Shown here piece by piece: positions 12,358 to 51,827 of a stretch of DNA of 64,000 bases. The position numbers and the translations under genes are program-made. The notes beneath the pieces were generated by a model that was not told the origin of the DNA, did no database searches, and was given only the letters and a program-made list of their open reading frames with translations. The number at the start of each line of letters is the position of its first letter. Position 1 is the first letter of the stretch. This DNA comes from Bacteroidetes Order II. bacterium (lineage in GTDB: Bacteria > Bacteroidota > Rhodothermia > Rhodothermales > UBA2364), in contig JAEUSQ010000018.1 in NCBI GenBank assembly GCA_016788705.1, positions 124,001 to 188,000 on the forward strand, in the 5' to 3' direction.

Positions 12358-13406
12358 CGTACGGTTAGCTGGGCGGGAATAAGATGTGGATTTTGTAGCC
12401 AATATGCCAGATTTTCAGCTAAATAAGGTGCCATCAAAAGACCTTTAGATCCTAATCCCGTCAACACCCATAGATTTCCTTTCTCCGTGACAGGTCCCAC
12501 CATCGGAAGTCTGGTTCTTGGTATAGTTATGCGTATTCCCACTTCAGAGACACTTTGAATCTCTGTCGGGAATGCTGGAACCATAGACCTAACACCACTT
12601 AAGATTTGGGACCTATCCGAATGTGAAGGATTTAAGTCTTCATAATGATGTCTAAAACTACTTCCAGCCACCCATTGATCTTCAAATGCTGCCACGTACA
12701 TTCCGCCGCTTAGACTGGGTATATCTGATGGCAAATGCGATGGTTCTGTCTTCTCAACTTGGCCCTTCACTGGATGTAAATCCAAGTACTTAAAAGGGGT
12801 GAAATTTAGAAGGCCATTTCCAAGACACGTTAAACATTTCTTCGCAAAGAAGGCATTCCCATCTTGGGTCTCTATCCGGACGCCAGTAGGTTCTTCGTCA
12901 ATGGCAGTTATGTGTACACATTGTTGGTCAACCTTTGCTTCAGAGACCAACCACTTGGCTAAATGGTTGATTTTTACCGTACCCCCGCTATGTACCCAAA
13001 TCCCTCCATGAGGTGCATTAAGCATACGGAATTGCGCTTTTAAGACCATCTTATCATACCAGAGACCCAGATGAGGTGATGTCTCGACAGATGACATAAA
13101 CCAATTTGCTTGTTCAGGCTTTTGCGCGGGTCGGAATAAGCCGTCCATTCTAACGATATGGCTGGGAACATGGGCTTCGTCAGCAATACGTCTAAAAGCA
13201 TTTAATGCAGTTTCTGCTTCCCAAACCCCTCGCCCCTTTTGTGCCATCATTGGGTTAATCAACCCACCAGACACGCCTGATCCTCTCCCAAGAACAGACG
13301 GTCCATCTATCACCAGCACTTGAAAATGTTTTTGAAGTTCCCATGCAGCAAACGCGCCAGCCAGTCCAGCACCAAGGATTATCAAGTCATATTCTGTTTG
13401 CGCCAT
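12342..13406 (-). CDS. FAD-dependent amino-acid-oxidase-type (DAO) oxidoreductase
   Basis: 354 residues. The N-terminus has the dinucleotide motif LGAGLAGAFAAWEL for FAD; the C-terminal part ends with GLGSKGLLMAPYLAENLAYWL, the DAO-family FAD contact. Similar proteins include glycine oxidase ThiO and the C-terminal half of MnmC, but neither a thiamin operon nor the MnmC methyltransferase half is present, so the substrate is open. The ATG at 13406 (MAQTEYD) is preferred over the one at 13418; it still overlaps the end of the upstream M50-like gene by 20 bases, so the two are probably cotranscribed. Confidence 0.8.
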   Translation of the reverse strand: MAQTEYDLIILGAGLAGAFAAWELQKHFQVLVIDGPSVLGRGSGVSGGLINPMMAQKGRGVWEAETALNAFRRIADEAHVPSHIVRMDGLFRPAQKPEQANWFMSSVETSPHLGLWYDKMVLKAQFRMLNAPHGGIWVHSGGTVKINHLAKWLVSEAKVDQQCVHITAIDEEPTGVRIETQDGNAFFAKKCLTCLGNGLLNFTPFKYLDLHPVKGQVEKTEPSHLPSDIPSLSGGMYVAAFEDQWVAGSSFRHHYEDLNPSHSDRSQILSGVRSMVPAFPTEIQSVSEVGIRITIPRTRLPMVGPVTEKGNLWVLTGLGSKGLLMAPYLAENLAYWLQNPHLIPAQLTVRHRRQ

Positions 13407-14079
13407 GAATACCACCAATCTCTTTTTCTGAATCAGATTTTAAAAGCGACCATCTAAAAACGTGAAAGATTAGGTAAAAAGAAATGAATAACCAAAACAT
13501 GCCCCACATAATCGTTGTTCCCCCGTAAGCCTCTGCCAGCATTCGTGCATCGGAAACTAAATAGGAACGAGCAATGGTGTCGCTATAAATATCGTGTGGG
13601 ACATACATCATACTCGTAAGCCCCACGGCCTTGAGAATGAGTGCATTCCAATCGTCGGCAAGATAACGTCCAGCTATAAAAAAAAGTACCCCAGCGATTA
13701 AGCTAAAACCGAAGCCAAACCAATTACGCACAAAAACCAAAGTGATGAGTAGTATAAAAAGCCCTATTCCCATCACCATCCATTTTTGATAACGTTTTGA
13801 TTCGGATAAGATGTAAAAAAGTACGCCAAATCCCAATGAACCAAGATATCCGGCGCTTAGGGTAATGAAAGGCCATCCCCCCAACGAGACAACATGCCCT
13901 CCTTGCTCTCTCACCAATACCATTTCTTTAACTTGCCCTCCTGTCAAAATAGTAGCAATGGCATGAGAGGCTTCATGAAAGAAAACTACCAGCATTTGTA
14001 ATGGGTACAGGACAGGAGTATCCCATAAAAACAAAATTGCCAGACAGGCAGCCACAAGAATAGAAAGTTTTTTTAACAT
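13387..14079 (-). CDS. M50B-like membrane metalloprotease-family protein
   Basis: About 230 residues and at least five hydrophobic segments. The zinc-binding HExxH is present as HEASH in VFFHEASHAIATILTGG, located in or next to the second membrane segment, as in M50-type intramembrane proteases. A second conserved metal ligand is less clear; DDWNALILKAVGLTSMMYVPHDI is a candidate. Bacterial proteins of this kind are usually annotated as uncharacterised M50 family. The start is placed at the ATG at 14079, right before the first membrane segment (MLKKLSILVAA); longer versions would run toward the ssb terminator. Confidence 0.72.
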   Translation of the reverse strand: MLKKLSILVAACLAILFLWDTPVLYPLQMLVVFFHEASHAIATILTGGQVKEMVLVREQGGHVVSLGGWPFITLSAGYLGSLGFGVLFYILSESKRYQKWMVMGIGLFILLITLVFVRNWFGFGFSLIAGVLFFIAGRYLADDWNALILKAVGLTSMMYVPHDIYSDTIARSYLVSDARMLAEAYGGTTIMWGMFWLFISFYLIFHVFRWSLLKSDSEKEIGGIHGANRI

Positions 14080-14146
14080 TGTTTTAGCATTAGTTGACAG
14101 GAATGCCACAGGCATACGAAGCAACAATAGTCTGGATACACCCCTG

Positions 14147-14186
14147 AAATATAAAAGGGGTAGAAAATTCCACCCCTTTTATATTT
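14147..14186 (-). terminator. Strong hairpin terminator after ssb
   Basis: Perfect 15-bp arms (14147-14161 and 14172-14186) around a 10-base loop, AT-rich at the base and GC-rich at the tip (GGGG/CCCC). It begins 3 bases after the ssb stop on the minus strand. The downstream sequence is mixed T/A rather than a pure T-run. Confidence 0.8.
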
Positions 14187-14189
14187 TCA

Positions 14190-14708
14190 TCAGAATGGCA
14201 AATCGTCATCAGGCCCAAAATCATCGTCTTGGGGTGGGGGCGGCGGGGTGGCAACTCGCTGAGGCGCCTGATACCCTCCACTTGTTTGATACCCGCCTCC
14301 ACCATATGAAGACTGGGCGGTATTGTACGAAGAGGGGCCGGATTGGAAATTTCCTGCACCCGCTTCGTTGTTTCCACGATCCAGCATTAGCATTTCATTT
14401 GCTTTGATTTCAGTAGTATATCGTTTGATCCCATCTTTATCGTCATACGAGCGTGTTTGCAAAGAACCTTCAATATAAACCTTGCGTCCTTTTGTCAAAT
14501 ACTTGGCGCAGATGTCAGCCAATTTATCAAACACGACAATCCGATGCGCTTCTGATCGCTCTACAAGATTTCCGTTTGCATCTCGGTAGCCTTCGTTGGT
14601 CATCACCGTAAAATTAGTAATCGTTACACCATTTCCGGTTGCACGCGTCTGTGGATCTGCTGCCAGGTTCCCAATTAGCATTACACGATTAAGTGAATTT
14701 CGTGCCAT
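14190..14708 (-). CDS. ssb: Single-stranded DNA-binding protein, paralogue 1
   Basis: 172 residues. An OB-fold domain fills residues 1-110 (NRVMLIGNLAADPQ; KLADICAKYLTKGRKVYIEG; LQTRSYDDKDG). A Gly/Ser/Gln-rich linker follows, then the acidic tip DDDLPF that docks SSB partner proteins such as RecQ, RecO and polymerase chi. It coats single-stranded DNA in replication and repair. A rare strong Shine-Dalgarno (GGAGGT) lies just before the ATG at 14708. It sits directly downstream of a second ssb in the same orientation. Its full-length acidic tail suggests this copy is the main cellular SSB. Confidence 0.95.
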   Translation of the reverse strand: MARNSLNRVMLIGNLAADPQTRATGNGVTITNFTVMTNEGYRDANGNLVERSEAHRIVVFDKLADICAKYLTKGRKVYIEGSLQTRSYDDKDGIKRYTTEIKANEMLMLDRGNNEAGAGNFQSGPSSYNTAQSSYGGGGYQTSGGYQAPQRVATPPPPPQDDDFGPDDDLPF

Positions 14709-14734
14709 GAACTTACCTCCGTTCTAATTATTGT

Positions 14735-14769
14735 CAAAACTACTTTGGCCAATAGCATGTTTTATCAAA
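14735..14769 (-). promoter_or_regulatory. Candidate Bacteroidota-type promoter for ssb
   Basis: On the minus strand TAGTTTTG (14742 to 14735) matches the phylum -7 consensus TAnnTTTG, with TTTG at 14769 to 14766 as the -33 element, 23 bases apart, slightly wide. It lies 27 bases upstream of the ssb start. Confidence 0.4.
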
Positions 14770-14850
14770 TGTACATCATTCAAATTACAACATTCAAATG
14801 TACCTTCAAACGATCCCATAAAAAAAGTATCAATTTGCACAAAGAGAAGT

Positions 14851-14874
14851 GGGCCGGCACCAAGGATCCGACCC
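14851..14874 (-). terminator. Weak hairpin downstream of the second ssb
   Basis: On the minus strand GGGTCGG (14874 to 14868) can pair with CCGGCCC (14857 to 14851) using one G-U pair, loop of 10. No immediate T-run follows, so termination is doubtful. Confidence 0.3.
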
Positions 14875-14900
14875 GATCGTTTTAATAGGGACATCGGCAC

Positions 14901-15389
14901 TTAAAAAGGCAGATCGGCTGTTGCTTCAAGAACTTCCTCGCCAACTGGTTCAGCAACAACCCGATTTGCACTACGTCCATTGGCATAACGTTTGGTTGCA
15001 TTTTGCTGACCATTGCCATTTTGCTGGCTCGTATGCTGAGAAGTAGCTTCTGGAGAGCGATCCAGCATCATCATTTCGTGGACTCGAATTTCGGTCAAAT
15101 AGCGTTTGTTACCATCTTTATCTTCGTAGGAGCGAGTTTGTAAAGCCCCCTCAATATACACTTTACGGCCCTTGGTCAAATACTTTGCACAAATATCAGC
15201 CAATTTGTCGAAAGCGACGAGGCGATGAGGCTCTGAGCGCTCCACTGTTTGGCCATTACCATCTCGGTACGACTCATTGGTCATAACAACAAAATTGGTA
15301 ACGGTTATTCCGGATCCGGTTGCACGGACTTGAGGATCTGCGGCCAAGAAGCCAATGAGGGTAACGCGGTTGATGGTGTTGTGTGCCAT
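14901..15389 (-). CDS. ssb: Single-stranded DNA-binding protein, paralogue 2
   Basis: 162 residues. The OB domain (1-110) is strikingly similar to the neighbouring ssb (shared KLADICAKYLTKGRKVYIEG and LQTRSY). The linker differs: Gln/Asn-rich and then Arg/Ala-rich, and the C-terminus keeps only LPF preceded by ATAD instead of the acidic DDDDLPF-like tip. That weakens the canonical partner-docking tail, so this copy may be specialised, for example for competence or recombination. It also has a strong Shine-Dalgarno before the ATG at 15389. The pair is most simply a local gene duplication followed by divergence of the tails. Confidence 0.93.
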   Translation of the reverse strand: MAHNTINRVTLIGFLAADPQVRATGSGITVTNFVVMTNESYRDGNGQTVERSEPHRLVAFDKLADICAKYLTKGRKVYIEGALQTRSYEDKDGNKRYLTEIRVHEMMMLDRSPEATSQHTSQQNGNGQQNATKRYANGRSANRVVAEPVGEEVLEATADLPF

Positions 15390-15571
15390 AGGAATACCTC
15401 CTGAAATTATTTAAAGTTTGTACAAGAACCCTGGTCTGTTCGATGTATGACGTATCTTCTTTCATGAACCCAACCAGGAGATAGTTTGGTTGACACTGCA
15501 AGAACCATTTGTTCGTTGCTAATGCCAAACTAAAAACCTACGGTGACAACAGTATGTCATAAGGCAAAAAG

Positions 15572-16396
15572 ATGGAAATAAAAAAAAATGATATCCCCCC
15601 TGCTTCGTTGGCAGCAGAAAGCAGTGCACAAGCCTATGCGGACTTTATCCAGATCGTTCATCGTCTCAGAAAAGAATGTCCGTGGGACCGAGAACAAACC
15701 CCCGAAAGTATCCGGCATTTGATTATAGAGGAAGCATACGAAGCGGTGGAAGCCATTGAAAAAGGAGATTGGGAAGAACTTCGGAAAGAATTAGGAGATC
15801 TCTTTTTGCATATTGTATTCCACGGCGTGATGGCGGAAGAAAAATCACGATTCACCATAGGAGGCATTTTGCACGGGATTTCAGAAAAGCTAATTCGTCG
15901 CCACCCACATGTTTATGGTGATCTTGCTGTAACGGATGCGCAATCCGTCTTGGAGAATTGGGAAAAGATTAAGCAGCGAGAAAATCCCAGTAATAAGTCT
16001 GTTTTGTCTGGAATACCTACCCATCTACCAGGTCTTTTACAAGCACATCGTATTCAGGAAAAGGCTGCAGGAGTTGGATTTGATTTTCCTAATCCTCATG
16101 AGGCTTTTTTAAAGGTGAAAGAAGAATTACAAGAATACGAGGAAATAATGTCCGATCCTTCCATTCCAGAAGAAGACAAAGAAATGGAATTAGGTGATTT
16201 ATTGTTTTCGATTGTAAACCATGCTAGACTTATCGGCCTAGTTCCAGAAAATTCAATCCGCCTTACCAATAAAAAATTTATTCATCGCTTTTCTTATGTT
16301 GAAAAAAAACTTGCAGACCAAGGAAGGAGCTTTTCGGATACTGGTTTAGATGAAATGGATCAGTACTGGAATGAATCCAAGACATTTGAGGTCTAA
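15572..16396 (+). CDS. mazG: Nucleoside triphosphate pyrophosphohydrolase MazG
   Basis: 274 residues, close to E. coli MazG (263). It hydrolyses NTPs/dNTPs to monophosphates plus pyrophosphate, cleaning up aberrant nucleotides. Two MazG repeats are visible: the first has CPWDREQTPESIRHLIIEEAYE..E, then ELGDLFLHIVFH (ExxE..ExxD metal site); the second has EKAAGVGFDF, then ELGDLLFSIVNHARL. Start ATG 15572 lies in the divergent region shared with ssb paralogue 2. Its stop overlaps the convergent acyltransferase-like gene's stop by four bases. Confidence 0.94.
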   Translation: MEIKKNDIPPASLAAESSAQAYADFIQIVHRLRKECPWDREQTPESIRHLIIEEAYEAVEAIEKGDWEELRKELGDLFLHIVFHGVMAEEKSRFTIGGILHGISEKLIRRHPHVYGDLAVTDAQSVLENWEKIKQRENPSNKSVLSGIPTHLPGLLQAHRIQEKAAGVGFDFPNPHEAFLKVKEELQEYEEIMSDPSIPEEDKEMELGDLLFSIVNHARLIGLVPENSIRLTNKKFIHRFSYVEKKLADQGRSFSDTGLDEMDQYWNESKTFEV

Positions 16397-17574
16397 ATAA
16401 GATGTATTACCCAATCATTAATAAGGAATAAATACAAGAGTAACCCAGTCCCAACTATTTGAAAAATTTTAAACTCTGAAGGTTTTTCTTTTTTAAACCA
16501 TGACCAAAATCTGGCATAATAAAACATAGAAATAAAAAGAATCAATGCATATATAAATGCGGGCAAGACTTGCATATTATATCGTAAGGAAGGTAATATG
16601 CTTTGGTTTAGAGGGGATCCATACACAATAAAAAGGTGCATCACATATATTGCCAAAGTCTCTTGACCCATTAGGGTGACATGGCGCAAAAGGGGTAGTC
16701 CATGCGGATTTTCTGAAACCTTAGGCTGGATATAAGCCTGATCAAGCCAATATAGAAAAGAAATAATAAGTAGTATATATCCTAAATTATGCAATACTAA
16801 AAAAGAATAAACACCATCTGGATCTTTAAAAGGATTGATCCAATATTCTATCCCTGGTTTTCCAATCATAATAAACAGTATCCCGATTAAAGTGAACCGA
16901 ATTATAATTTGTTTTATAGAAATGACTTCTTGCCATTTCTTGAAATAATATGCAGAAATAATACCTGCCAATAAATACATGCTCCACGGAAAAATCGGGA
17001 AATAAGAACCGATAGATTTATCCAGATACCCCCTTATCCAAAGTGGCACAGCCTGCAAGTCGCTTCCCCAAAGATAGGGCGTTGTTAAGAATATGAAGAG
17101 AAACAAAAAAGACAAAAACGTAATAAAGACTTTCTTCTTTTTTAGTAAGTAAACTAAAAACTGGCAAAATGCTAGCGTTATACCAATAATCTGAAGGGCA
17201 TCAATCTGGAAAAAGAATAAAATATTCTTCTCAGACATTTGGGTAAGGAGTTTATAAAAAGAAAAATAAGCCAAATGCAGCCAATAACCAATTGCAAGAA
17301 GCAAAAGATATCGCCTTATCCTTTTCCAAAGTGCGGGCGACCATTGGATGAAGTGTGTCCATTTTCTAAATGTGGCAACACCAAAAGCCAAGCCAGAAGA
17401 AAACAGAAAGATAGGACTTGTAAAACCATGAATGAATGTATGCGCTCCTTGGAACCAGTCCATCTTTTTAATTTCTGGAGAAAGATACGCATCAAAAGTA
17501 TGCCCTTGTAGCATTAACACAACGGCAGTGAAACGGAAAATATCTACAAATACCCAACGATTGGCGGCTTTCAT
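16393..17574 (-). CDS. Multi-spanning acyltransferase-like membrane protein (DUF1624/heparan-glucosaminide N-acetyltransferase-like)
   Basis: About 393 residues with roughly ten hydrophobic helices. The N-terminal segment DIFRFTAVVLMLQGHTFDAYL followed by HGFTSPIFLFSSGLAFGVA resembles the DUF1624 / YeiB / HGSNAT group of membrane acyltransferases, in which the first-helix His and Asp are conserved. The acceptor is unknown; envelope sugars are the usual suggestion. ATG 17574 is preferred because it begins right before the first helix. The gene is AT-richer than its neighbours, partly due to its hydrophobic content. Confidence 0.68.
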   Translation of the reverse strand: MKAANRWVFVDIFRFTAVVLMLQGHTFDAYLSPEIKKMDWFQGAHTFIHGFTSPIFLFSSGLAFGVATFRKWTHFIQWSPALWKRIRRYLLLLAIGYWLHLAYFSFYKLLTQMSEKNILFFFQIDALQIIGITLAFCQFLVYLLKKKKVFITFLSFLFLFIFLTTPYLWGSDLQAVPLWIRGYLDKSIGSYFPIFPWSMYLLAGIISAYYFKKWQEVISIKQIIIRFTLIGILFIMIGKPGIEYWINPFKDPDGVYSFLVLHNLGYILLIISFLYWLDQAYIQPKVSENPHGLPLLRHVTLMGQETLAIYVMHLFIVYGSPLNQSILPSLRYNMQVLPAFIYALILFISMFYYARFWSWFKKEKPSEFKIFQIVGTGLLLYLFLINDWVIHLI

Positions 17575-17641
17575 GAAAACGATTTTATGCAGTTTGAAAA
17601 TCAAATGTAAACATGGAAAGGCACTGCTTCCAAATCATCCT

Positions 17642-17676
17642 AAAAAAAGGGTCAGTCAACGAATGAACTGACCCTT
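17642..17676 (-). terminator. Rho-independent terminator after the 154-residue membrane protein gene
   Basis: 10-bp arms (AAGGGTCAGT at 17647-17656, ACTGACCCTT at 17667-17676). Read on the minus strand, the hairpin ends in a run of seven T. It separates this gene from the acyltransferase-like gene. Confidence 0.88.
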
Positions 17677-17695
17677 AATTGCACCATAGAAGACC

Positions 17696-18160
17696 TTAGA
17701 ACCTGAACCATGCCATTTTCCCTGTCATTAGACCAGGTAAGAGGGAGAGCAGTAGAAGAAACAAAGCAGATAGCTGATACATAAACAACTTTTTATGTGC
17801 TAACATACTTGTATTCGCCTTTTTGCTCGCAATACTACCTATCTGAACCATCACGACAGCAAGAATCATGAGCAATAAGTGTTCAACGGCATAGAAACGA
17901 ATCGCACTTACTTTCATCAAAGCCATGCCCATGCCTTGCCAAAAAGGGATGTAAATAATGGCATACAGGATCAAACCAACGAGCAGTTGCAGATGAAACA
18001 AGCCTGTCAGTATGACCGATTGTTTTCGCAAAGAGGGCGACATTTCCATATTTGCTTTCCAGCCTTGGAAACTTTTTACCAATACCAAGGCCATCAATAT
18101 CAAAATCGCCCAGCGGTTATACGAATGCAGATATCGAAGAATTTCTGTAAACAAATACAT
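17696..18160 (-). CDS. Four-helix integral membrane protein, unknown
   Basis: 154 residues with four clear hydrophobic helices and little else. His12 with YNRW (LHSYNRW), another His in the second helix (LFHLQL), and His in the third (AVEHLLL) could bind haem, and relatives are sometimes labelled cytochrome-b-like, but no defined motif confirms that. It is followed by its own terminator and starts 30 bases after the HerA-like gene's minus-strand end region, so it may be the last or a separate unit. Confidence 0.6.
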   Translation of the reverse strand: MYLFTEILRYLHSYNRWAILILMALVLVKSFQGWKANMEMSPSLRKQSVILTGLFHLQLLVGLILYAIIYIPFWQGMGMALMKVSAIRFYAVEHLLLMILAVVMVQIGSIASKKANTSMLAHKKLFMYQLSALFLLLLSLLPGLMTGKMAWFRF

Positions 18161-18190
18161 GTTTTTTATTAATTTGGGGTGATAAAGGGC

Positions 18191-19885
18191 TTAGAATAAA
18201 TCTTTCATTTGTTTGCGAATATCGGTGATTTTTTCATTTTCTTCTGCACGCATGGCGGCATAGAAATGCTCATCGTAGCTTCTGGTTTTAAGCACAACTG
18301 GCATTGGAACCGCATGCCCCATTACCAACGCTTGTTGCTTTGAATCGAGGCTTGCAAGTACTTGCCGTAGGCCAGAGGCATCGCTGGTTCCAACCAAAGC
18401 AGCGTTTAGGTCTTTTTCATCATTTAACTGAGCAACGATTTTGGTTCCAATCTGGCTTAGGACTTCGTCATCAATGGCACTCGGTCTTTGGTCCACAATC
18501 AGGAGAGATACAAAATATTTCCTCATCTCGCGTGCAATGACCCCAAACGGAGTCTCTGAAGCAATGCCAGGTTGAAGAAATTTATGCGCTTCCTCGATCG
18601 TAATCATCAATTGTGGTGGCTTATCTTCTTCTTTGCGGGAAGAGAGATACGCATTCGTTTTCTGTTCATATGCAGCACGCAAACGACGGGTGATGATATT
18701 GGCCACAAACATGTAGGCTTTTAGGCTGTCATAACGGCCAAATTCCAACACAACGGAACGGTTTTTCAGGATATTCTCCAGTAATTGTTCTATGACATCG
18801 GTTTTTCCGCTTCCTGGCTCCCGTTTAAAAAAACCAAGTCCACAAACTTGTTCTAACTTGCGTTTTAGGGCAGCAACAGACTGAAAATTGGCCCCGCAGT
18901 CTTTCGCTAACTCATTTAATTCTTCTTCAGAGTCAGATTTCAGCAGACGAATGAGCCAAGATTTACCCAGTTTATTGCGTAAAAGATACGTACTTTCTGC
19001 CGCTGTTTGGGTAAGGTTTAACGTATTTTGTAAGGGTAAAATGTCTTCTGGTTCAACCTGGTCTGCATAGAGAAAAACTTCATAATCCGGATTTATGCCA
19101 TTGTTTCGCTTGCGTGTACTTTCTGGATCCAGCGAAAAGATGGCCACTTTTCCAGGAAATAGTTCACGTAGTCCTTTGACAAAAGACGCCGATTTTCCTT
19201 CCTGTCTTGCTGATATGCCATACTCCGAGTGCATATCGAAAATTAGATTTACCGCTTTGTCACTTTTTAGCGTACCGCAAATTAGCAGGCGCGTTAGGAA
19301 GGTTTTTCCAGTTCCTGTTTTTCCAAAAACGGCATTGCTCCTTTCAACGAGACGATCCAGATCAATACAAACGGGAATTTCGTCCATATCCAAGGGAGCA
19401 CCGACATGAAAAAAACGCTGTTTTTGGTTTTCGTCTAAGTTGGCCTCGTGTCCAAAAATGCGGGCAATGTCTTCGGCTTGGGCTTCGCTCACCAGTGAGA
19501 AATGACTAGGAATGGTTTTTACCCGCGAGGCTTCCAGTCGTCCTAAATCTGGATGGCTCCCATTAGGGGTCATTAATAGGGGTTTCAGCACAACCGTCAC
19601 ATAGGTTGCATGTCCCATCATCACTTGACGCAGCAATAAATCTGATGTATCAGGTGGATTTAACAATATATTCGGATTTGCAGCTTCCAACGAAACATCG
19701 GTGATCATGGTGAAGAAGTCGTATTGAGCACCCTCAACCACCATAAACTTCCCCGCTTTTAATTGTTCAACGGAATGGTTTGCATCCAACCGCATGATGA
19801 TTCCCTTACCCAAAGAACCTTGGGTAATGACCCCAAGTTTAGGGCGCTGGCTAGCATAAGGTGTATGGGCTGTGATTTTGCTCAT
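18191..19885 (-). CDS. HerA-like DUF87 ATPase (hexameric DNA translocase family)
   Basis: 564 residues from the ATG at 19885. An N-terminal beta-rich barrel-like region precedes a RecA-fold ATPase: Walker A GKTGTGKT at 188-195, and a Walker B-type LMITIEEAHKFLQPG in the C-terminal third, followed by a sensor VDQRPS. HerA family members pump DNA during end resection with the nuclease NurA; no nurA is adjacent, so its partner and target are unknown. The start codon overlaps the rlmN stop (ATGA, 19882-19885), indicating translational coupling to an RNA methylase gene, an unusual pairing. Confidence 0.85.
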   Translation of the reverse strand: MSKITAHTPYASQRPKLGVITQGSLGKGIIMRLDANHSVEQLKAGKFMVVEGAQYDFFTMITDVSLEAANPNILLNPPDTSDLLLRQVMMGHATYVTVVLKPLLMTPNGSHPDLGRLEASRVKTIPSHFSLVSEAQAEDIARIFGHEANLDENQKQRFFHVGAPLDMDEIPVCIDLDRLVERSNAVFGKTGTGKTFLTRLLICGTLKSDKAVNLIFDMHSEYGISARQEGKSASFVKGLRELFPGKVAIFSLDPESTRKRNNGINPDYEVFLYADQVEPEDILPLQNTLNLTQTAAESTYLLRNKLGKSWLIRLLKSDSEEELNELAKDCGANFQSVAALKRKLEQVCGLGFFKREPGSGKTDVIEQLLENILKNRSVVLEFGRYDSLKAYMFVANIITRRLRAAYEQKTNAYLSSRKEEDKPPQLMITIEEAHKFLQPGIASETPFGVIAREMRKYFVSLLIVDQRPSAIDDEVLSQIGTKIVAQLNDEKDLNAALVGTSDASGLRQVLASLDSKQQALVMGHAVPMPVVLKTRSYDEHFYAAMRAEENEKITDIRKQMKDLF

Positions 19886-20970
19886 TGCGCCGCTGTTTTC
19901 TCGATTTCCCCTACATTTATCGCTAACTGACCACATGCTGCCTCTATATCTTGTCCTCTGCTCCGTCTAACCGTTACGGTTACCTTATTTGCAACAAGTA
20001 CACGGATAAAGGCATTTAGCCGTTGTTCGCGGCTCGCTTCAAAAGCCACTCCTTTCACGGGGTTAAACATAATTAGGTTTACCTTGCTTGGCGCCCATCG
20101 AACAATTTTTGCCAAGGCTTTTGCATCCTCTTCATGGTCATTGAAGTGATCAAAGATACAATACTCGTAGGTGATTTGGTTTTTGGTTCGCTGATAAAAA
20201 TACTGTACGGCCTCTTTAAGCGCTTTTAGGTCTGTTTTGAGGCTTCGGTTTACTGGCATAATTTCCGACCTTTTTTCGGGAGTGGGGGCATGTAGAGAAA
20301 TCGCCAAGTTAACCTTAACATCATCATCGGCTAGGCGCATGATTCGTCCGGCAAGTCCGACCGTGGAGAGCGTAATCCGGCGAGAGGCAAGGCCCAACCC
20401 TTCTGGTGATGTTAAAAGACCAATGGCTTGTAATACCTGCTCATAATTTTGAAGGGGTTCCCCCATGCCCATAAAGACGACATTTGTAATTTTACGCCCA
20501 TATTGTTCATTTGCCAATTGGTTCATTTGCCAAACTTGGTCATAAATTTCACCTGCATGAAGGTTCTGCATAAATCCCATTTGCCCCGTCGCACAAAAAG
20601 TACACCCCATTGCGCAACCTACCTGACTCGAAACACAGACCGTAAGGCGAGAAGCATCTCCATCCTCATCAAAACCAGGAATAAGTACGGTTTCTATCGC
20701 CTTGCCCGAATGTAGTTGGTAGAGACTCTTTACAGTTCCATCTATTACAGAGGTCTGCATTTGGATACATTTCAGGGTCTGAAGATCAAAATGGGTATCG
20801 AGTGCGCTTCTAAATGCAGTGGGGAGATTAGACATCGCTTCGAAAGATGTTGCGCCCTTTGCATACAGCCATTGGAAAAGTTGACGTCCTCTGAAACGCG
20901 GTTCGCCCAATGAAAGGGCAAGTGCTTCTAACTGTTCTAATGATAAAGACTTAATATTTTTTTTAGACAT
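19882..20970 (-). CDS. rlmN: Dual-specificity 23S rRNA/tRNA adenine C2-methyltransferase RlmN
   Basis: 362 residues. A radical-SAM enzyme that methylates C2 of A2503 in 23S rRNA and A37 in some tRNAs. The [4Fe-4S] motif CAMGCTFC (CxxxCxxC) is followed by the family-typical ATGQMGF and VFMGMGEPLQNYE. The two methyl-transfer cysteines expected near residue 118 and near the C-terminus are plausible (VSSQVGC region; EAACGQL at the end). Starts at 20970, three bases after the lycopene cyclase stop, and runs into the HerA-like gene. Confidence 0.95.
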   Translation of the reverse strand: MSKKNIKSLSLEQLEALALSLGEPRFRGRQLFQWLYAKGATSFEAMSNLPTAFRSALDTHFDLQTLKCIQMQTSVIDGTVKSLYQLHSGKAIETVLIPGFDEDGDASRLTVCVSSQVGCAMGCTFCATGQMGFMQNLHAGEIYDQVWQMNQLANEQYGRKITNVVFMGMGEPLQNYEQVLQAIGLLTSPEGLGLASRRITLSTVGLAGRIMRLADDDVKVNLAISLHAPTPEKRSEIMPVNRSLKTDLKALKEAVQYFYQRTKNQITYEYCIFDHFNDHEEDAKALAKIVRWAPSKVNLIMFNPVKGVAFEASREQRLNAFIRVLVANKVTVTVRRSRGQDIEAACGQLAINVGEIEKTAAQ

Positions 20971-20973
20971 TCT

Positions 20974-21711
20974 TTATTCTGTTTCTATCTTTGGGTGATC
21001 TCCTTCCCAAAAGCGCATAAAGATAGATAGTCCACCCAAACAAAGTAGGTTGGTTATTAGGAAAAATGTGGCTTCTTCAATTGGGAGACCTAATATATGC
21101 CATCCAATTGTGTAGTTCCTTGAAATTTCCCATATCCCCAGGCCAATGGCGATCCGATCGGCAATCCAGAGATACACGGTTGGGATACTCAAACTCCAGA
21201 TGAAGGTGCGGCGGATGTCCCAAAGGGCCGACCCGATGAGGTACCACATACCCGCAAATACAGGGGCTGCCCAAGCCAATATTAATCCCATATAGGTGGT
21301 TTTGTCAAATGTTAGCATGTACACACCAGCACAGGCAGCCAACAACCAAAAAGTTACGCCCACATACCGGACATAAGGATACAAGAGACCCGTTGGCCGC
21401 TCCGATTTTCGGCGGGTATATAGTTGGAAAAAGAATAATCCGGTCAATATAGGTTGTAACAAAAAGAAAAGGTATTCTTCTATGGGAACATAACCAATCA
21501 CCCCAATAACTCGTTCGTTGCCATACCCCCAAATTCCCCGATAGACCAAATAATTGTCCCATGGCGTGGTATAAACAAAGGCAATTCCCATTACAGCGAG
21601 TAAATAGAACCAATGTTTTCCCTGTGTACCCGCTACTTTTGAGGGAAGCATGTACCACAAAAGGCCAATGACTGGCAGAATAAAAACAAAATGGAATTGT
21701 AAATATGTCAT
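20974..21711 (-). CDS. Lycopene beta-cyclase, CrtYcd/CarR-type membrane protein
   Basis: 245 residues and about seven membrane helices. It contains two copies of the lycopene-cyclase repeat: PIEEY at 76-80 and PIEEA at 210-214, each preceded by a WD-containing segment (WDNYLVYRGIWGYG near 51-64 and the IADRIAIG region near 183-190). In actinobacteria this enzyme is split into CrtYc and CrtYd; here the two halves are fused, as in fungi, archaea and several Bacteroidota. It closes lycopene ends to beta-rings. It lies 19 bases after a CrtO ketolase gene, so the pair builds keto-carotenoids. Confidence 0.9.
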   Translation of the reverse strand: MTYLQFHFVFILPVIGLLWYMLPSKVAGTQGKHWFYLLAVMGIAFVYTTPWDNYLVYRGIWGYGNERVIGVIGYVPIEEYLFFLLQPILTGLFFFQLYTRRKSERPTGLLYPYVRYVGVTFWLLAACAGVYMLTFDKTTYMGLILAWAAPVFAGMWYLIGSALWDIRRTFIWSLSIPTVYLWIADRIAIGLGIWEISRNYTIGWHILGLPIEEATFFLITNLLCLGGLSIFMRFWEGDHPKIETE

Positions 21712-21730
21712 TTAACCTTATGATTTATTA

Positions 21731-23266
21731 TCAGATACGTTTTTTTTCTAAGTCTTTCAAAATGACCCTTGCGGCGCTTCGTCCAGAGGCGCCCATAATT
21801 CCACCACCAGGATGTGTGCTGGCACCTGTTAGGTAAAGCCCTTTCAAGTGGGACTTATATTCCGACATACCAAGCATGGGGCGGAGCATAAACATCTGAT
21901 CTAATGTCATTTCGAGGTGCATTACATTGGCCCGATATAACCCCAATTCGCGTTCTAACCAAAGCGGATGTTGAAACAATGTGCCCACAACACTGGCTTT
22001 GGTTCCTGGTGCATATTCCTCAAAGGTATCCAAAATATCTTCTGCGACGGCAGGTGCGATCTCGTCCCAATGCCCGTTTTGCAGTTCGTATGGAAAATAT
22101 TGCGCCCATAACCAGAGGACTTCGCCACCCGGCGGAGCAAGCGTGCCGTCCACCGCACTAAAAGACATGGCAACAATCGGCGGGCGAGGGGTAGGCTCTC
22201 CTTTTAAGTAGTGACCAAAAGCCCGGCTCACTTCTTGACGGTTTTCGCACAGGAGTTGCAGGGCAATCCGTGACTCAATCCCGGAAAAGGCTTTATATGA
22301 AATAGGTTTGTTCAGTGCAAGACGTAAGATGGCACCAAAACCATTTCCTACTCGCAAAGATTTTGCTTGTTCGGGTTGGTGTTCACTCGGCAGCAACTTG
22401 GTAAATGTCTCTAAGGCATGGGTACCAGACACAACGGCTCGTGCAGTATAATCTATCCCATTAGAGTGAATGCCTATCACTTTTTTTTCTGATACCAAAA
22501 ACCGGCTTACAGGACTATTAACAAAGACGGTGCCTCCATAATGTTCTATCTGACGTTGGAGTGCTTGTGTTAACATTCCTGAGCCTCCTTTTGGCCGTGC
22601 AGCACCTCCTTCATGGTACAAAGGGTGCCATAACAAGAAAGGCGCATTGAGAGGTTCCGTAGGCGGTGGCCCAGATTGTGCCGCCATCCATACCATCGGA
22701 GATTTAATCTTTTCCTCCTTGAAATAGTGATCCACCACCTCGCCATAAGGCTTTAGAATCATGGGTAAGGCTTTTTTCCAATCACCTTGTATGGCTTTTC
22801 CTAAAACGAACTTTTTACCCAATTCCAATGGACTTGGCGTGGACAGAAAAACTTCTTTGACGGTTTTTGCAAACGGAGACCAATCGGCCAAAAAGCGACG
22901 ATAGGCTTCTCCTTCGCCGGGGAACTTCAATTCAAGATGGTCTATGGTTTTATCTGCACTTCGATAGAAAAAAACAGCATCGTTATCTTTAAAGGGGGCA
23001 AAAAAAACCGGATCAAGTTCAAGATAACTTAATCCAAATTTCTCCAGTTCCAATTCCTCGACAATGGGGGTGAGTCGAATTAGTATGTGCGCGCTCCCCC
23101 CTAAGTCAAATCGGTATCCGGGCACAACTTCCTCGGTCGAAACAGCCCCCCCTACCATGGAACGCCGCTCAAAAACCCCAACCTTATACCCTGCTTTTGC
23201 GAGGTATGCAGCAGTAATAAGGCCATTATGGCCTGCACCAACTAGGATTACATCAAAATCAGGCAT
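21731..23266 (-). CDS. crtO: Carotenoid 4-ketolase, CrtO type (phytoene-desaturase-like FAD enzyme)
   Basis: 511 residues, the same length I recall for Deinococcus CrtO, and it follows that protein closely: GAGHNGL FAD motif (11-17), [39 protein letters not shown], and the C-terminal [20 protein letters not shown]. CrtO adds keto groups to the beta-rings of carotenoids such as gamma- or beta-carotene. Placement directly upstream of a lycopene cyclase supports this over a desaturase role. crtB and crtI are not in the window, so the early pathway is encoded elsewhere. Confidence 0.9.
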
Positions 23267-23349
23267 ATGACAATTGGCTAACTGAAAGGCGAAAGAGACC
23301 CAAATGAATGTATATTGTGTGATCTATAAAAACCAAACCGTTTATCGCT

Positions 23350-23814
23350 ATGGGACGCTACTACGACGAATTAGAAACGGGTGAGGTCATCCGTCATTAC
23401 GTAACCAAAACCATAACGGAGGGTGAGCATTTTTTGTTCTGCTCGATCACCTTAAATACACAACCTCTACACATAGACGCCGAGTTTGCCCGGAAATCTA
23501 CTTTTGGGCGCATTTTGGTTGATGGGCTTTTTGTGCTCAGTCTGGCAGTGGGCATTTCAGTGGGCGACCTTACTTCCGGGACCATTGTGGCCAATCTCGG
23601 CTATGATTCGGTGCGCCATACCCATCCGGTTTTTCATGGAGATACCATCCATGTGGAAACAGTAGTAATCCAAAAAAGACTTTCTGCCTCTCGTGAAGGT
23701 GTGGGAATTGTTACTTTTCTGCATAAAGCCTTTAATCAAAGAGAAGAAATAGTATTGGAGGTAAAACGAAGCGCCATGATGTTGATGAAACCGCAAAAAA
23801 AACCCTCGGTATGA
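23350..23814 (+). CDS. MaoC-like (hot-dog fold) enoyl-CoA hydratase family protein
   Basis: 154 residues, one MaoC hot-dog domain. The hydratase signature is visible as TLNTQPLHIDAEFARKSTFGRILVDGLF, with the catalytic Asp/His pair in PLHID. The wording resembles one half of mesaconyl-CoA hydratase and the itaconyl-CoA/mesaconyl-CoA hydratases. Its stop overlaps the following CitE-like lyase gene by ATGA. The pair makes biochemical sense as hydratase plus citramalyl/methylmalyl-CoA lyase: add water to an unsaturated C5 dicarboxyl-CoA, then split the product. Substrate is inferred from context only. Confidence 0.82.
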   Translation: MGRYYDELETGEVIRHYVTKTITEGEHFLFCSITLNTQPLHIDAEFARKSTFGRILVDGLFVLSLAVGISVGDLTSGTIVANLGYDSVRHTHPVFHGDTIHVETVVIQKRLSASREGVGIVTFLHKAFNQREEIVLEVKRSAMMLMKPQKKPSV

Positions 23815-24677
23815 GACGAAGTTTTCTTTTTATGCCCGCAACCGACCGTCATAAAGCAGAGAAAGCTGCAAAAATGGAGGTAGATGTGGTGGTCTTGGAT
23901 TTGGAAGATGGCACTGCCTTATCCAGAAAGGAAGAAGCAAGACAAATTGCTGTTGCCATTTTGAACGAGGTTGAGTTTGGAAATCGGTTGGTTATGGTGC
24001 GCATAAACGACCTAAGAAGCCCATTTTGGCAAGATGATCTGGCTGCTTTTTCTGAAAAACTGCCGGATGGAATTGTGATTGCGAAAACAGAAGCCGCATC
24101 TGAGGTAGAAATGGTGGCGGCATATGTAGAGGAGCAGGAACAAAAGTTGAGCATAGAAGCGGGCCGAACAAAACTCTTTGCGGTAATCGAATCTTCAAGA
24201 GGGTTGGTGTCAATTCGAGAAATTGCGATGTGTTCGCAGACGTTCCCCAGACTGTCCGGATTGATTTTTGGTGCCGAAGATTATGCGGGGAGCGTTGGAG
24301 CAACACGAACAAAAGAAGGAATTGAAATTCTGTTTGCCAGAAGTCGTTTGGTAATGTTTGCCAAAGCTTTTGGCTTGGATGCCATTGACACCATTTACGG
24401 CAATTTTAAAGACATGACGGGACTTGAGGCGGAGACAACTTGGGCAAAAAATTTGGGATTTACCGGAAAATTGGCCATCCATCCTACCCAAGTGCCCGTG
24501 ATCCACCAGGTATTGAGACCCTCCCAAAAAGAAATTGAGGAAGCAAGGCAATTGATTCATGCCTACAAAGATCATCAGGAAAATGGAAAAGGGGTATTTT
24601 CGTGGAATGGTAGAATGATGGATGCACCAAATATTATTCAGGCGAAGGAAATTTTAATTCGTGCTAATTTATTGTAA
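23811..24677 (+). CDS. HpcH/HpaI aldolase family CoA lyase, CitE/malyl-CoA-lyase-like
   Basis: 288 residues, a TIM-barrel of the CitE group. Features in order: RSFLFMPATD at the N-terminus, VVLDLEDGT, VRIND, IVIAKTEAASE, then the magnesium ligands in AVIESSRGL (Glu) and GAEDYAGSVGA (Asp), and FTGKLAIHPTQV toward the end. Relatives include L-malyl-CoA/beta-methylmalyl-CoA lyase, citramalyl-CoA lyase (CLYBL) and malyl-CoA thioesterase. No citD/citF are nearby, so it is not part of a citrate lyase complex. Coupled by ATGA to the MaoC-like gene. Confidence 0.86.
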   Translation: MRRSFLFMPATDRHKAEKAAKMEVDVVVLDLEDGTALSRKEEARQIAVAILNEVEFGNRLVMVRINDLRSPFWQDDLAAFSEKLPDGIVIAKTEAASEVEMVAAYVEEQEQKLSIEAGRTKLFAVIESSRGLVSIREIAMCSQTFPRLSGLIFGAEDYAGSVGATRTKEGIEILFARSRLVMFAKAFGLDAIDTIYGNFKDMTGLEAETTWAKNLGFTGKLAIHPTQVPVIHQVLRPSQKEIEEARQLIHAYKDHQENGKGVFSWNGRMMDAPNIIQAKEILIRANLL

Positions 24678-24703
24678 AATCATTCTGCTGTGAAGTAAAA
24701 AAT

Positions 24704-24730
24704 AAAAAGATGGCACGTTTTTATCTTTTT
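24704..24730 (+). terminator. Weak AT-rich hairpin after the citE-like gene
   Basis: AAAAAGAT (24704-24711) pairs with ATCTTTTT (24723-24730), 11-base loop, 26 bases after the stop. The stem is all but one AT pairs and there is no extra T-run. Confidence 0.4.
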
Positions 24731-24803
24731 AGATATGTGCTACCTCCAAAATTGTGTTCCGCCACTTACTTCCTTCTGTTTCTTAACATAAACCATAACA
24801 TTG

Positions 24804-25496
24804 ATGCCTGAATTTGATACGGTAACGTACCAAGTAGGCGCGGCGTTTCCTGATCTCACCCTTGGTATAGACGATGATTCTGTATGGGCAAGTGCGGAAA
24901 TGACTGCTGAAATCTTGGGCAAAAGTTTATCAGAGGTACAGTCTCTTCTAAGCCATAAAAAAATCCAAACCCTGTTTGATACAGCTCACTTCCGCAGGTC
25001 TTCCAACACCGAGGGGGGGGAGCAGATGTTTATCTCGTTGGATGTCATCCTTTACCTCGCAACCAAAACCCATTCAGAAAAAGGAATGCGTTTTTGTATG
25101 TGGGCGTCCGAACAGATCAAGGAACGGCTGCACGAGAAAAAGTTTTCCACCATGCGGGAACGGCTTGAACTTTCTGAAAAACGATTGGATATCCAGCGTA
25201 AGAAGAAAGAAATGGTATTGGATATTACGGACAAAAAAACCGAAATCCGCAGGAAACGTTTGGAAATGCAAAAAGACTTGTTGACAGTCCCCGAGCTGGA
25301 AAAAGTCAAAATTGCACTCGAAGAGCAGCGCCTGCTACTGGATAAAGCAACCGAACTCTCCAATATTCTTGCCACCATTACAGTGGATGAAAACAAAACT
25401 GTGGTGGGGAGCGAACCAGTCCTTGTACCCATTTTAGACGAAGGAGAGCGAGATATCGTGAAGATGAAACTGATGGAACTGATCCTTAAGTTTTAA
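24804..25496 (+). CDS. RhuM-like N-terminal domain protein with a coiled coil
   Basis: About 230 residues from ATG 24804 (the adjacent TTG is less likely). Residues 1-110 resemble the RhuM domain of Salmonella pathogenicity islands and many phage/plasmid proteins: D-x-SVWASAEMTAEILGKS, later MFISLDVILYLATKTHS, then MRFCMWASEQIKERL. Residues about 110-190 are a heptad-rich coiled coil (ERLELSEKRLDIQRKKKEM...). RhuM function is not established; it is common in mobile DNA. It converges on a tyrosine recombinase gene with only 5 bases between stops, forming a compact two-gene cassette. Confidence 0.68.
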   Translation: MPEFDTVTYQVGAAFPDLTLGIDDDSVWASAEMTAEILGKSLSEVQSLLSHKKIQTLFDTAHFRRSSNTEGGEQMFISLDVILYLATKTHSEKGMRFCMWASEQIKERLHEKKFSTMRERLELSEKRLDIQRKKKEMVLDITDKKTEIRRKRLEMQKDLLTVPELEKVKIALEEQRLLLDKATELSNILATITVDENKTVVGSEPVLVPILDEGERDIVKMKLMELILKF

Positions 25497-25501
25497 TACC
25501 C

Positions 25502-26389
25502 TTAAACGTCTAAATAATCTGAAGAACTCTCATTGGGTCGTGCGTGGGTATAACGCCCAGTAGTGGCAACCGACGCATGACCTAATGTTGCTTGTACCAG
25601 ATGGATCGGCGCTCCCGCATCTAAGGCATGACTTGCGTGGGCGTGTCGCATCCAGTGAGGACTGACCTTTTGCCATAACCCAGCTTTTTCGGCAGCTTTT
25701 TTAACAATTCTATACACTTGTACTCGCCCGAGTGAGCCGCCTTTTTTACTCCTAAAAATCGGATCATCGGGTGTTCTATCTTTTTGTAGTTGCAACAATT
25801 CTTCCGTGGTGGCTTTGGATAACCGGATAGTGCGGGTTTTGCCACCTTTTCCGAAGACCACGACTTGACTACCGTTATTGCGGATGGTAAAATCACGCCA
25901 TGTAAGTGCCGTCATCTCGGAAACCCGAATACCTGTGCTGTATAAAAGCCTCAGTATGGCATGATTGCGCTCATCGGTTTCCAAGGCCAGCATAGTAGCT
26001 AATTCATGTTCACTTAAAATTCGTTCAGCAAGCGTGTCTTTGAGTGCTGGAATCTTTAAGGGGGCACCAGTGTCATAGACGAGATAGCCAAGTCGGTGAG
26101 CAAAAGCAATAAGGCTTTTGACAGCATAAAGTTTTCGTTTTTTGGAGCCATCGGCATATTGAACCAACGCATCTGAAAAAATTTGCAGGTCTGCCAAAGT
26201 CAATGACTTAATAGGCTTATCTATGAAATCTAAAAACTGCCGAATGTCGCGTGCATAATTTTCGATGGTATTGGCAGGACGACCGTGTAGCCAAAGCCGA
26301 ACGAGGTGCTCGTCATTGATAGCTTCTTGAGAGGCGATTTCGGGCTGCTCGGTCTTGATGAGTACAAAACTGCGTTTGGGTACTGGCAT
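25502..26389 (-). CDS. Tyrosine recombinase, XerC/XerD-like
   Basis: 295 residues: an N-terminal SAM-like DNA-binding domain (about 25-110) and a C-terminal catalytic domain. All active-site residues are present: Arg155 (GIRVSEM), Lys181 (beta-hairpin, FGKGG), His245 and Arg248 (PHWMRHAHAS), His271 (LGHAS) and nucleophile Tyr280 (GRYTHA). The size and sequence fit Xer-type enzymes, which act at dif sites, but integrase or transposon relatives look alike. A dif-like 11-6-11 palindrome lies about 70 bases upstream of its start, in the manner of streptococcal XerS with its adjacent site. Convergent with the RhuM-like gene. Confidence 0.88.
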   Translation of the reverse strand: MPVPKRSFVLIKTEQPEIASQEAINDEHLVRLWLHGRPANTIENYARDIRQFLDFIDKPIKSLTLADLQIFSDALVQYADGSKKRKLYAVKSLIAFAHRLGYLVYDTGAPLKIPALKDTLAERILSEHELATMLALETDERNHAILRLLYSTGIRVSEMTALTWRDFTIRNNGSQVVVFGKGGKTRTIRLSKATTEELLQLQKDRTPDDPIFRSKKGGSLGRVQVYRIVKKAAEKAGLWQKVSPHWMRHAHASHALDAGAPIHLVQATLGHASVATTGRYTHARPNESSSDYLDV

Positions 26390-26458
26390 GGGTTAACTAT
26401 TTGGTTGGGGGTGTGATCAGCCTATCTGTTGATATAAAATACAAAATACCAAGACTTG

Positions 26459-26486
26459 ATGCAACATAACAATACTTATGTTACAT
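26459..26486. other. dif-like recombination site candidate (11-6-11 palindrome)
   Basis: Left arm ATGCAACATAA (26459-26469), 6-base centre CAATAC, right arm TTATGTTACAT (26476-26486). The arms are inverted copies at 10 of 11 positions. The right arm matches the E. coli XerD arm TTATGTTAAAT at 10 of 11. The left arm shares only CATAA with the XerC arm. Confidence 0.55.
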
Positions 26487-51047: not shown

Positions 51048-51827
51048 ATGATCAAACGATTTCTGTATGCCTTGGCCCTCTTCGTTTTCATTAACGAAGA
51101 GGGCATTGCACAAACCAAGAGTGCAAACCCTTCCTTTTCAGGTGGTTACACTGAAGAATATCAAATACCCCCACAAAACTCCGAGTCTGAGGCAATCGTT
51201 TTTACACGTGGCCGCCCACCTATTCCAGTTGCGGATGCTTTTGCAGCCGGATGGGCTACGTATTATGCACATGCCTATGCTGGAAGGTTAACTTCAGCAG
51301 GAGAGGTATTCGATCCAAATGCTTTTACAGCGGCACACCGTTATTTACCCACGGGAACCATGGTCAGGGTGGTGAATCAGAACAACCAAAAAGAAGTGAC
51401 CGTCCGCATCAATGACCGCGGGCCGTTTATGCGAGGATCTAATAATGTTATTGACCTTTCCTATCGAGCAGCTGTAGAAATTGACATGATTAATCCAGGC
51501 GTTGTACCCGTCCGTATCTATGTGCTTTCTTCTGTCCCCGAATATGTATCACGTGTTCCAAAAGACTTCGAGGCATGGGCGATTCAGGTTTCTGCTTCAA
51601 AAGACCGAGTTTCTTCTGAAAAAGTGGTAGCGAAATTGGGACCACAAGCCACCTTACGGAGTATTCGGACAGCCCAAGGCGTTATCATGTACCGCGTTTT
51701 GTATGGGCGTTATAGCCGCAAAGAAGAGGCTATTGCAGCCAAATCGGAACTATCGGCAAAAGGTTTTCCTAATAGCTTTGAAAAGTATTTGGTGGATGAA
51801 CACCCAGATTTGGCTGGCATCAAATAA
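51048..51827 (+). CDS. rlpA: RlpA-like protein with SPOR domain
   Basis: 259 residues from ATG 51048, with a Sec signal ending near GIAQT. A double-psi beta-barrel (about 68-160) carries GWATYYAHAYAGRLTSAGE, AAHRYLPTGTMVRV and INDRGPF, the lytic-transglycosylase signature. The C-terminal SPOR domain (about 180-255: WAIQVSASKDR, VLYGRYSRKEEAIAAKSEL) binds denuded glycan strands at the septum. It trims peptidoglycan during division. No lipobox Cys follows the signal, so it is probably periplasmic rather than a lipoprotein as in E. coli. Confidence 0.92.
   Translation: MIKRFLYALALFVFINEEGIAQTKSANPSFSGGYTEEYQIPPQNSESEAIVFTRGRPPIPVADAFAAGWATYYAHAYAGRLTSAGEVFDPNAFTAAHRYLPTGTMVRVVNQNNQKEVTVRINDRGPFMRGSNNVIDLSYRAAVEIDMINPGVVPVRIYVLSSVPEYVSRVPKDFEAWAIQVSASKDRVSSEKVVAKLGPQATLRSIRTAQGVIMYRVLYGRYSRKEEAIAAKSELSAKGFPNSFEKYLVDEHPDLAGIK

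Follow-up and report, generated by a model that had tools for sequence, protein, structure and literature searches.

Results

A Palindrome Upstream of a Tyrosine Recombinase Gene

The window, i.e., the whole 64-kb stretch of DNA that was analysed, carries on its minus strand (25502-26389) the gene of a 295-aa tyrosine recombinase, which we assign to a family termed type A here and presume to be the sole Xer recombinase of the genome. Upstream of this gene, in the non-coding gap that separates it from a second minus-strand gene ending at 26536, the window sequence contains the 28-bp palindrome ATGCAACATAA-CAATAC-TTATGTTACAT (26459-26486). Its left 11-bp arm ATGCAACATAA (26459-26469, plus strand) reads TTATGTTGCAT on the recombinase-sense strand, its right 11-bp arm TTATGTTACAT occupies 26476-26486 (plus strand), and the two enclose the 6-bp centre CAATAC (26470-26475), the presumed region of strand exchange, which is identical in congeners and different in other genera. 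The initial annotation had described an 11-6-11 palindrome about 70 bases from the start of the recombinase, and this description holds in detail: 10 of the 11 arm positions agree when one arm is read as the inverted copy of the other, a single base separates the right arm from the XerD arm TTATGTTAAAT of Escherichia coli dif (GGTGCGCATAATGTATATTATGTTAAAT; PMC2731167), as had been claimed, and the gap between the site and the ATG measures 69 bp. The G+C content of the site is 25%, compared with approximately 45% across the window.

Palindromes of this geometry with at least 10 of 11 matching arm positions occur four times in the window and 0-1 times in each of five Markov-random sequences. That there are four of such quality within 64 kb speaks for a chance origin, and a bare palindrome of this kind is not remarkable by itself. 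A perfect 11-6-11 palindrome, CCCTCTTCGTT-TTCATT-AACGAAGAGGG, lies at 51076-51103; its core is not dif-like.

Between the site and the gene we noted the heptamer TATTTTG (26442-26448, minus strand), which may serve the recombinase gene as a -7 promoter element of the Bacteroidota type, and a block similar to it is kept in an alignment of the congeners. If this inferred promoter is real, the palindrome may overlap it, which could allow autoregulation, and binding of the recombinase, itself an inference, may also control expression of its own gene. Such a function could even be the only one, with the palindrome serving as an operator of the recombinase promoter and the true recombination target lying elsewhere. 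The location of the site 69 bp upstream of the gene would suit an operator, as would the arrangement in family f4, where about 10 bases separate the site from the open reading frame and a TTGACT-N17-TATGTT-like promoter surrounds it; the fixed 11-6-11 spacing and the failure to find any other conserved site speak against it. Downstream of the recombinase gene, a convergent open reading frame (24801-25496) matches the RhuM family only weakly, with a score under the Pfam cut-off.

The Recombinase Is Catalytically Complete and Distinct from Canonical Xer Proteins

The recombinase had been called catalytically complete, and residues R155, K181, H245, R248, H271 and Y280 indeed align with the active site of XerD (1a0p), giving the full R-K-H-R-H-Y set that membership of the dif/Xer class demands; the codon of the catalytic nucleophile Tyr280 is located at 25550-25552 (minus strand). 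The protein nevertheless stays well below the curated cut-offs of the XerC and XerD models (TIGR02224, 166 against 335 bits; TIGR02225, 167.5 against 329.6 bits) and of the XerS model NF003462 (69.7 against 267 bits). The best match was obtained with the XerA model NF040815, at 172.4 bits for a cut-off of 220, and similarity to XerH (5jjv) is weak and distant (phmmer E value 1.7e-16), and the protein does not qualify as XerH either. In a tree, which was calculated quickly and contains several long branches, the recombinase falls apart from canonical Xer in a supported clade with sequences from Cyanobacteria, Chloroflexota, Acidobacteriota and others; the clade with the cyanobacterial sequences, including one from a Coleofasciculus, received an SH-aLRT value of 98*. 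Among the 296 genomes sampled from the phylum, Rhodothermales alone yielded close relatives belonging to the family.

Three PF00589 genes are present in the whole genome, namely the 295-aa recombinase and two loci that we refer to as L001 and L003. The only one of the other two that is catalytically plausible is L001, a mobile-type recombinase on another contig (G000:C65:102858-103340), a 590-aa frame, extended at its N terminus, that ends in the recombinase domain and neighbours a DNA-methylase-like gene; the locus resembles a segment of a mobile or defence region. L003 (G000:C18:193271-194251; L003:1075-2055) is a 326-aa tyrosine-recombinase-like gene adjoining a dihydrolipoamide acyltransferase gene, 43 kb from the site and 5 kb past the end of the window. 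It has lost conserved catalytic residues, including arginines (HSLT for HxxR), scores higher against the type B family described below than against type A, and is possibly the relic of an older Xer.

The Site Is Unique and Conserved beside Orthologous Recombinases

The comparison sample comprised 60 Rhodothermales genomes, including Salinibacter ruber DSM 13855 and Rhodothermus marinus DSM 4252; the source genome (G000) spans 4.28 Mb in 66 contigs and is 99.9% complete. The genome-wide search that had been proposed for the site returned a single copy in this genome and no second one at up to three mismatches. Four other matches to the canonical dif-like core CATAA-N6-TTATG were rejected, being poorly palindromic outside the core. 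Simple tyrosine recombinases beside palindromes can be invertases, and NCBIfam invertase models match the protein weakly; a DNA inversion or phase-variation enzyme with a local target is, however, very improbable in the absence of another copy of the site at this mismatch level anywhere in the genome.

In the relatives we searched for ATGTAACATAA-N6-TTATGTTACAT with up to three mismatches. The motif was found in 13 of the 60 genomes, every one of which (13 of 13) encodes an orthologous recombinase; put the other way round, it occurs in 13 of 18 genomes with the ortholog versus 0 of 42 without it. Twelve of the 13 contain exactly one copy and the remaining genome, G026, contains two. A reversed-pattern control gave 0 matches in the 60 Rhodothermales genomes, and about 0.01 chance matches per genome are expected. 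The five ortholog-bearing genomes that the motif missed are G038, a 14th genome with the site, at four mismatches, and four of the Salinibacter family, in which a diverged site is visible upstream (ACGGGATCTAA-TAAGCG-TTATGTTGCGT in S. ruber and ACGAAACAAAA-TAAACG-TTTTGTTTCGT in G047). The second copy in G026 is imperfect (ATGCAACATAA-ATGGCG-CTATGTTGCAT; G026:C29:159-186, L052), lies near a contig end and may mark an integrated element; it counts against the reading as a dif site.

All 14 sites agree at 13 of the 22 arm positions, which is true of none of the six central positions; depending on the genus, the centre reads GTATTG, CAATAA, TTATCC or TTAACC on the gene-sense strand. Constant arms around a variable centre are what is expected of a tyrosine-recombinase core site. 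The absence of the palindrome from the recombinase loci of relatives had been named beforehand as a finding that would refute the proposal, and the palindrome is present there. Because it is unique in the genome, conserved beside orthologs and, among three congeners, an almost constant 28-bp block in an otherwise diverged spacer, the site goes beyond what chance would produce. With arms conserved in 14 genomes whose recombinases share as little as 45% and at most 84% protein identity, and with so few random matches expected, a chance palindrome is, as far as conservation can tell, already refuted, and we give it next to no credence.

The Site Lies at the Replication Terminus

The GC skew switches from plus to minus in the interval 12398-26486, which we take as the region of the replication terminus; the cumulative skew has its maximum within the window at 12398 and forms a shallow plateau from there to the site. 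The initial annotation had named a single copy near the terminus, equated with the minimum of cumulative skew, as support for dimer resolution. The site does lie in the switch region, and the word minimum has to be corrected, as by the usual convention the terminus is the maximum. The skew is positive to the left and negative to the right of the site in eight genomes (G000, G001, G002, G005, G029, G038, G056 and G058), and the switch was seen across the site in every genome in which both flanks could be read. Around the recombinase of three Salinibacter-family genomes the skew likewise passes from plus to minus, and on the finished S. ruber chromosome the switch falls between 1.82 and 1.90 Mb, with the recombinase at 1.875 Mb. 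The site and the local maximum of cumulative skew are 474 bp apart in G058. The corresponding distances of 14 kb in the source genome and 15 kb in G002, both on a shallow plateau, count against a dif site.

Two genomes separate the site from the gene. In G049 they lie 32 kb apart on one contig, with the site between unrelated genes, and in G026 they are on different contigs, at least 9 kb apart. Both show positive skew on the left side of the site, followed in G049 by negative skew on the right side, and in neither does the switch coincide with the gene. G016 was not used as proof of unlinking, since its gene and site, although on different contigs, each lie close to a contig end and could adjoin. 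As the skew tracks the site and not the gene in G049 and G026, a mere operator is argued against; together with the occurrence of the distant site in single copy, or nearly so, this leaves the operator explanation unlikely in our judgement.

XerC and XerD Are Absent and FtsK Is Retained

The possibility that a canonical xerC/xerD pair exists elsewhere, which had been raised as a check, was addressed with the XerC and XerD models: neither the source genome nor any of its 59 relatives contains one, 0 of the 60 Rhodothermales genomes exceeding the curated cut-offs that control genomes do pass. The locus also does not conform to a system of two recombinases on an asymmetric site, given its near-symmetric arms and the lack of a canonical second Xer gene in the genome. 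The gamma domain of FtsK was detected in 58 of 60 genomes, including the source genome. In G000, G002 and G058, the E. coli KOPS sequence GGGNAGGG is oriented toward the site in 46 of 50 cases, and in these three lower-GC genomes none of the 56 motifs of equal composition surpasses it in polarity. Over all six genomes, with three GC-rich ones of the Salinibacter family added, the value is 0.77 compared with a median of 0.73, which is not outstanding among G-rich motifs. The KOPS-like polarity is only suggestive evidence.

A Second Recombinase Family Occurs in the Same Order

Thirty genomes without type A encode another recombinase, type B (alignment A2), which at that strength was found in none of the 18 type A genomes (Fisher p = 2e-7, uncorrected for kinship); 12 genomes have neither at the thresholds used. 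Type B occurs in most other Rhodothermales families (L150, L151, L039, L152, L155, L157, L149 and others). Its genes often have an 11-6-11 palindrome of their own upstream, as in family f14 (ACTTCCGATAA-CAGTTC-TTATCGGAAGT) and G044 (ATGTTTGATAA-GTATTA-TTATCAAACAT), and these linked palindromes take the form ACTTCCGATAA-N6-TTATCGGAAGT. The type B gene coincides with a skew switch or lies close to one in G044, G008 and G034, and not clearly so in G032 and G004. Genus g30 is split, with type A in G058 and type B in G045, and in S. ruber and its relatives type A is accompanied by a neighbouring type-B-like gene that has decayed catalytically. We considered for Salinibacter a hybrid site used by two recombinases, in view of its asymmetric site and the adjoining type-B-like gene, and rejected it because that gene has lost catalytic residues.

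Replacement of type B by type A is a reasonable reading of this distribution, which has not been demonstrated. Taken further, the dimer-resolution machinery would be an exchangeable cassette, in which a plasmid- or phage-type module (type A) became established at the terminus in place of an older and distinct single-recombinase module (type B), leaving decayed genes near the terminus in the genome studied here and beside type A in Salinibacter. We offer this scenario tentatively, and the odds are slightly against it.

Relatives on Plasmids, Phages and Cyanobacterial Genomes

Outside the phylum, relatives of the recombinase were found on 126 plasmids, many of them cyanobacterial, and in some phages, and the protein type is not exclusively chromosomal given these members, a point against the dif interpretation. 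Several have a similar palindrome just upstream, most clearly the Methylorubrum plasmid pCMU02 and the Acetobacter phage phiAP1; by shuffling, the upstream palindromes are clear in some cases (L306, L317) and not significant in most, and no such site was found in the viral relatives L093-L096. The relatives include plasmid loci L304, L306, L307, L312 and L314 and phage loci L316 and L317, some with a dif-like palindrome directly upstream. Those with a linked palindrome are likely self-contained resolution modules. Two IMG/VR contigs (L302:7217-7244 and L303:2663-2690) contain the exact site motif with other centres, the recombinase of L302 being only distantly related; they are possibly Xer-exploiting elements or host contigs.

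The plasmid and phage relatives, and the motif in these viral-collection contigs, could mean that the recombinase is carried by an integrative or IMEX-type mobile element, with the Rhodothermales palindrome as the attachment site of that element. One copy per genome leaves no attL/attR pair (the imperfect second copy in G026 being the exception), the neighbouring gene is common to all three congeners, the site is at the terminus wherever it can be placed, and no element genes adjoin apart from the weak RhuM-like frame; we regard a mobile element as improbable.

Eight family-carrying genomes outside the closest set were screened for canonical XerD-like proteins. Such proteins are present in those of Acidobacteriota, Hyphomicrobium, Chloroflexota and Bdellovibrionota, and were not found in three cyanobacteria and a Bacteroidetes MAG among the eight. 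Oscillatoriophycideae are reported to lack Xer, and a 'Cyan' subgroup of simple tyrosine recombinases may replace it (Smyshlyaev 2021, PMC8138268). The type A family may well correspond to this subgroup, an inference made without the sequences of those authors. The type A clade holds cyanobacterial members; the text of PMC8138268 names neither a site nor members from Rhodothermales.

Discussion

We interpret the palindrome as a chromosomal dif site and the adjacent gene as its single recombinase, with a probability of roughly 0.87. What we observed is the site with its geometry, uniqueness, conservation and terminus position, the co-occurrence of a recombinase with an intact active site, and the lack of XerC and XerD; binding, cleavage and strand exchange, dimer resolution and control by FtsK are inferred. 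The single-recombinase Xer system suggested in the initial annotation thus gains support from the single copy, the position at the skew switch, the missing canonical pair and the palindromes at the loci of relatives. As a single, non-coding site of low G+C content with palindromic arms near the GC-skew maximum, it shows the features of sequence and position expected of the chromosomal dif/Xer class, and the FtsK translocase with gamma domain that this class calls for is present as well.

According to the model that we propose, a recombinase dimer would bind the two near-identical 11-bp arms, and the two sites of a dimeric chromosome would synapse at the septum as a tetramer containing four copies of one recombinase. 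Tyr280 is predicted to cleave at the borders between arms and centre, and strand exchange over the 6-bp centre would convert the chromosome dimer into two monomers. FtsK, whose gamma domain is kept, probably translocates along oriented KOPS-like sequences and in this way brings the two sites into contact.

Few Xer systems with a single recombinase are known, and they were discovered separately from one another. Here, a whole order seems to be without XerC/XerD (60 genomes) and to use two mutually exclusive single-recombinase systems, in one case within one genus. This is a natural setting in which to test how FtsK-linked dimer resolution can switch its recombinase and site, and whether chromosomal Xer systems can be recruited from plasmid or phage resolution modules, an origin that is debated (PMC8138268). 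For cyanobacteria, in which the prediction of dif was unsuccessful (PMC3025954), it also supplies a concrete candidate. No full-text literature on dif in Salinibacter or Rhodothermus was found.

Comparison with Known Systems

The XerS/difSL system of streptococci and lactococci shares with the Rhodothermales system a single recombinase, a gene-linked site, the terminus and the presence of FtsK in the cell. However, difSL has 31 bp, 11 of them in the centre, and XerS is a protein of 356 aa (PMC5357621), whereas the Rhodothermales site has 28 bp and a 6-bp centre, and its 295-aa recombinase scores under the XerS cut-off. In XerH/difH of Campylobacterota, inverted repeats are conserved around a variable hexanucleotide, often gene-linked and at the skew peak (PMC2731167), so that the likeness extends to the single recombinase, the variable centre, the gene linkage and the position; the differences are the length of XerH (354-362 aa versus 295 aa) and the XerD-like arms in Rhodothermales. 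The archaeal XerA/dif pair also combines a single recombinase with an 11-6-11 site, sometimes as a xerA/dif module, but XerA works without FtsK, the gamma domain of which is present in Rhodothermales, and our protein scores under the XerA cut-off. XerL/dif is likewise an order-wide single-recombinase system for dimer resolution, in Legionellales, that XerCD searches had missed, with the Coxiella gene on a plasmid; its orthologs were found within Legionellales (PMC9765430), i.e., in another order and phylum.

We conclude that the Rhodothermales system works like XerS/difSL, XerH/difH or XerL with a recombinase of a different clade, the recombination itself being inferred. Its function is of a known kind. 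The literature searched, which excluded subscription journals, appears to contain no description of this recombinase clade, of such a system in this taxon, or of an order that lacks XerC/XerD throughout and has two alternative modules.
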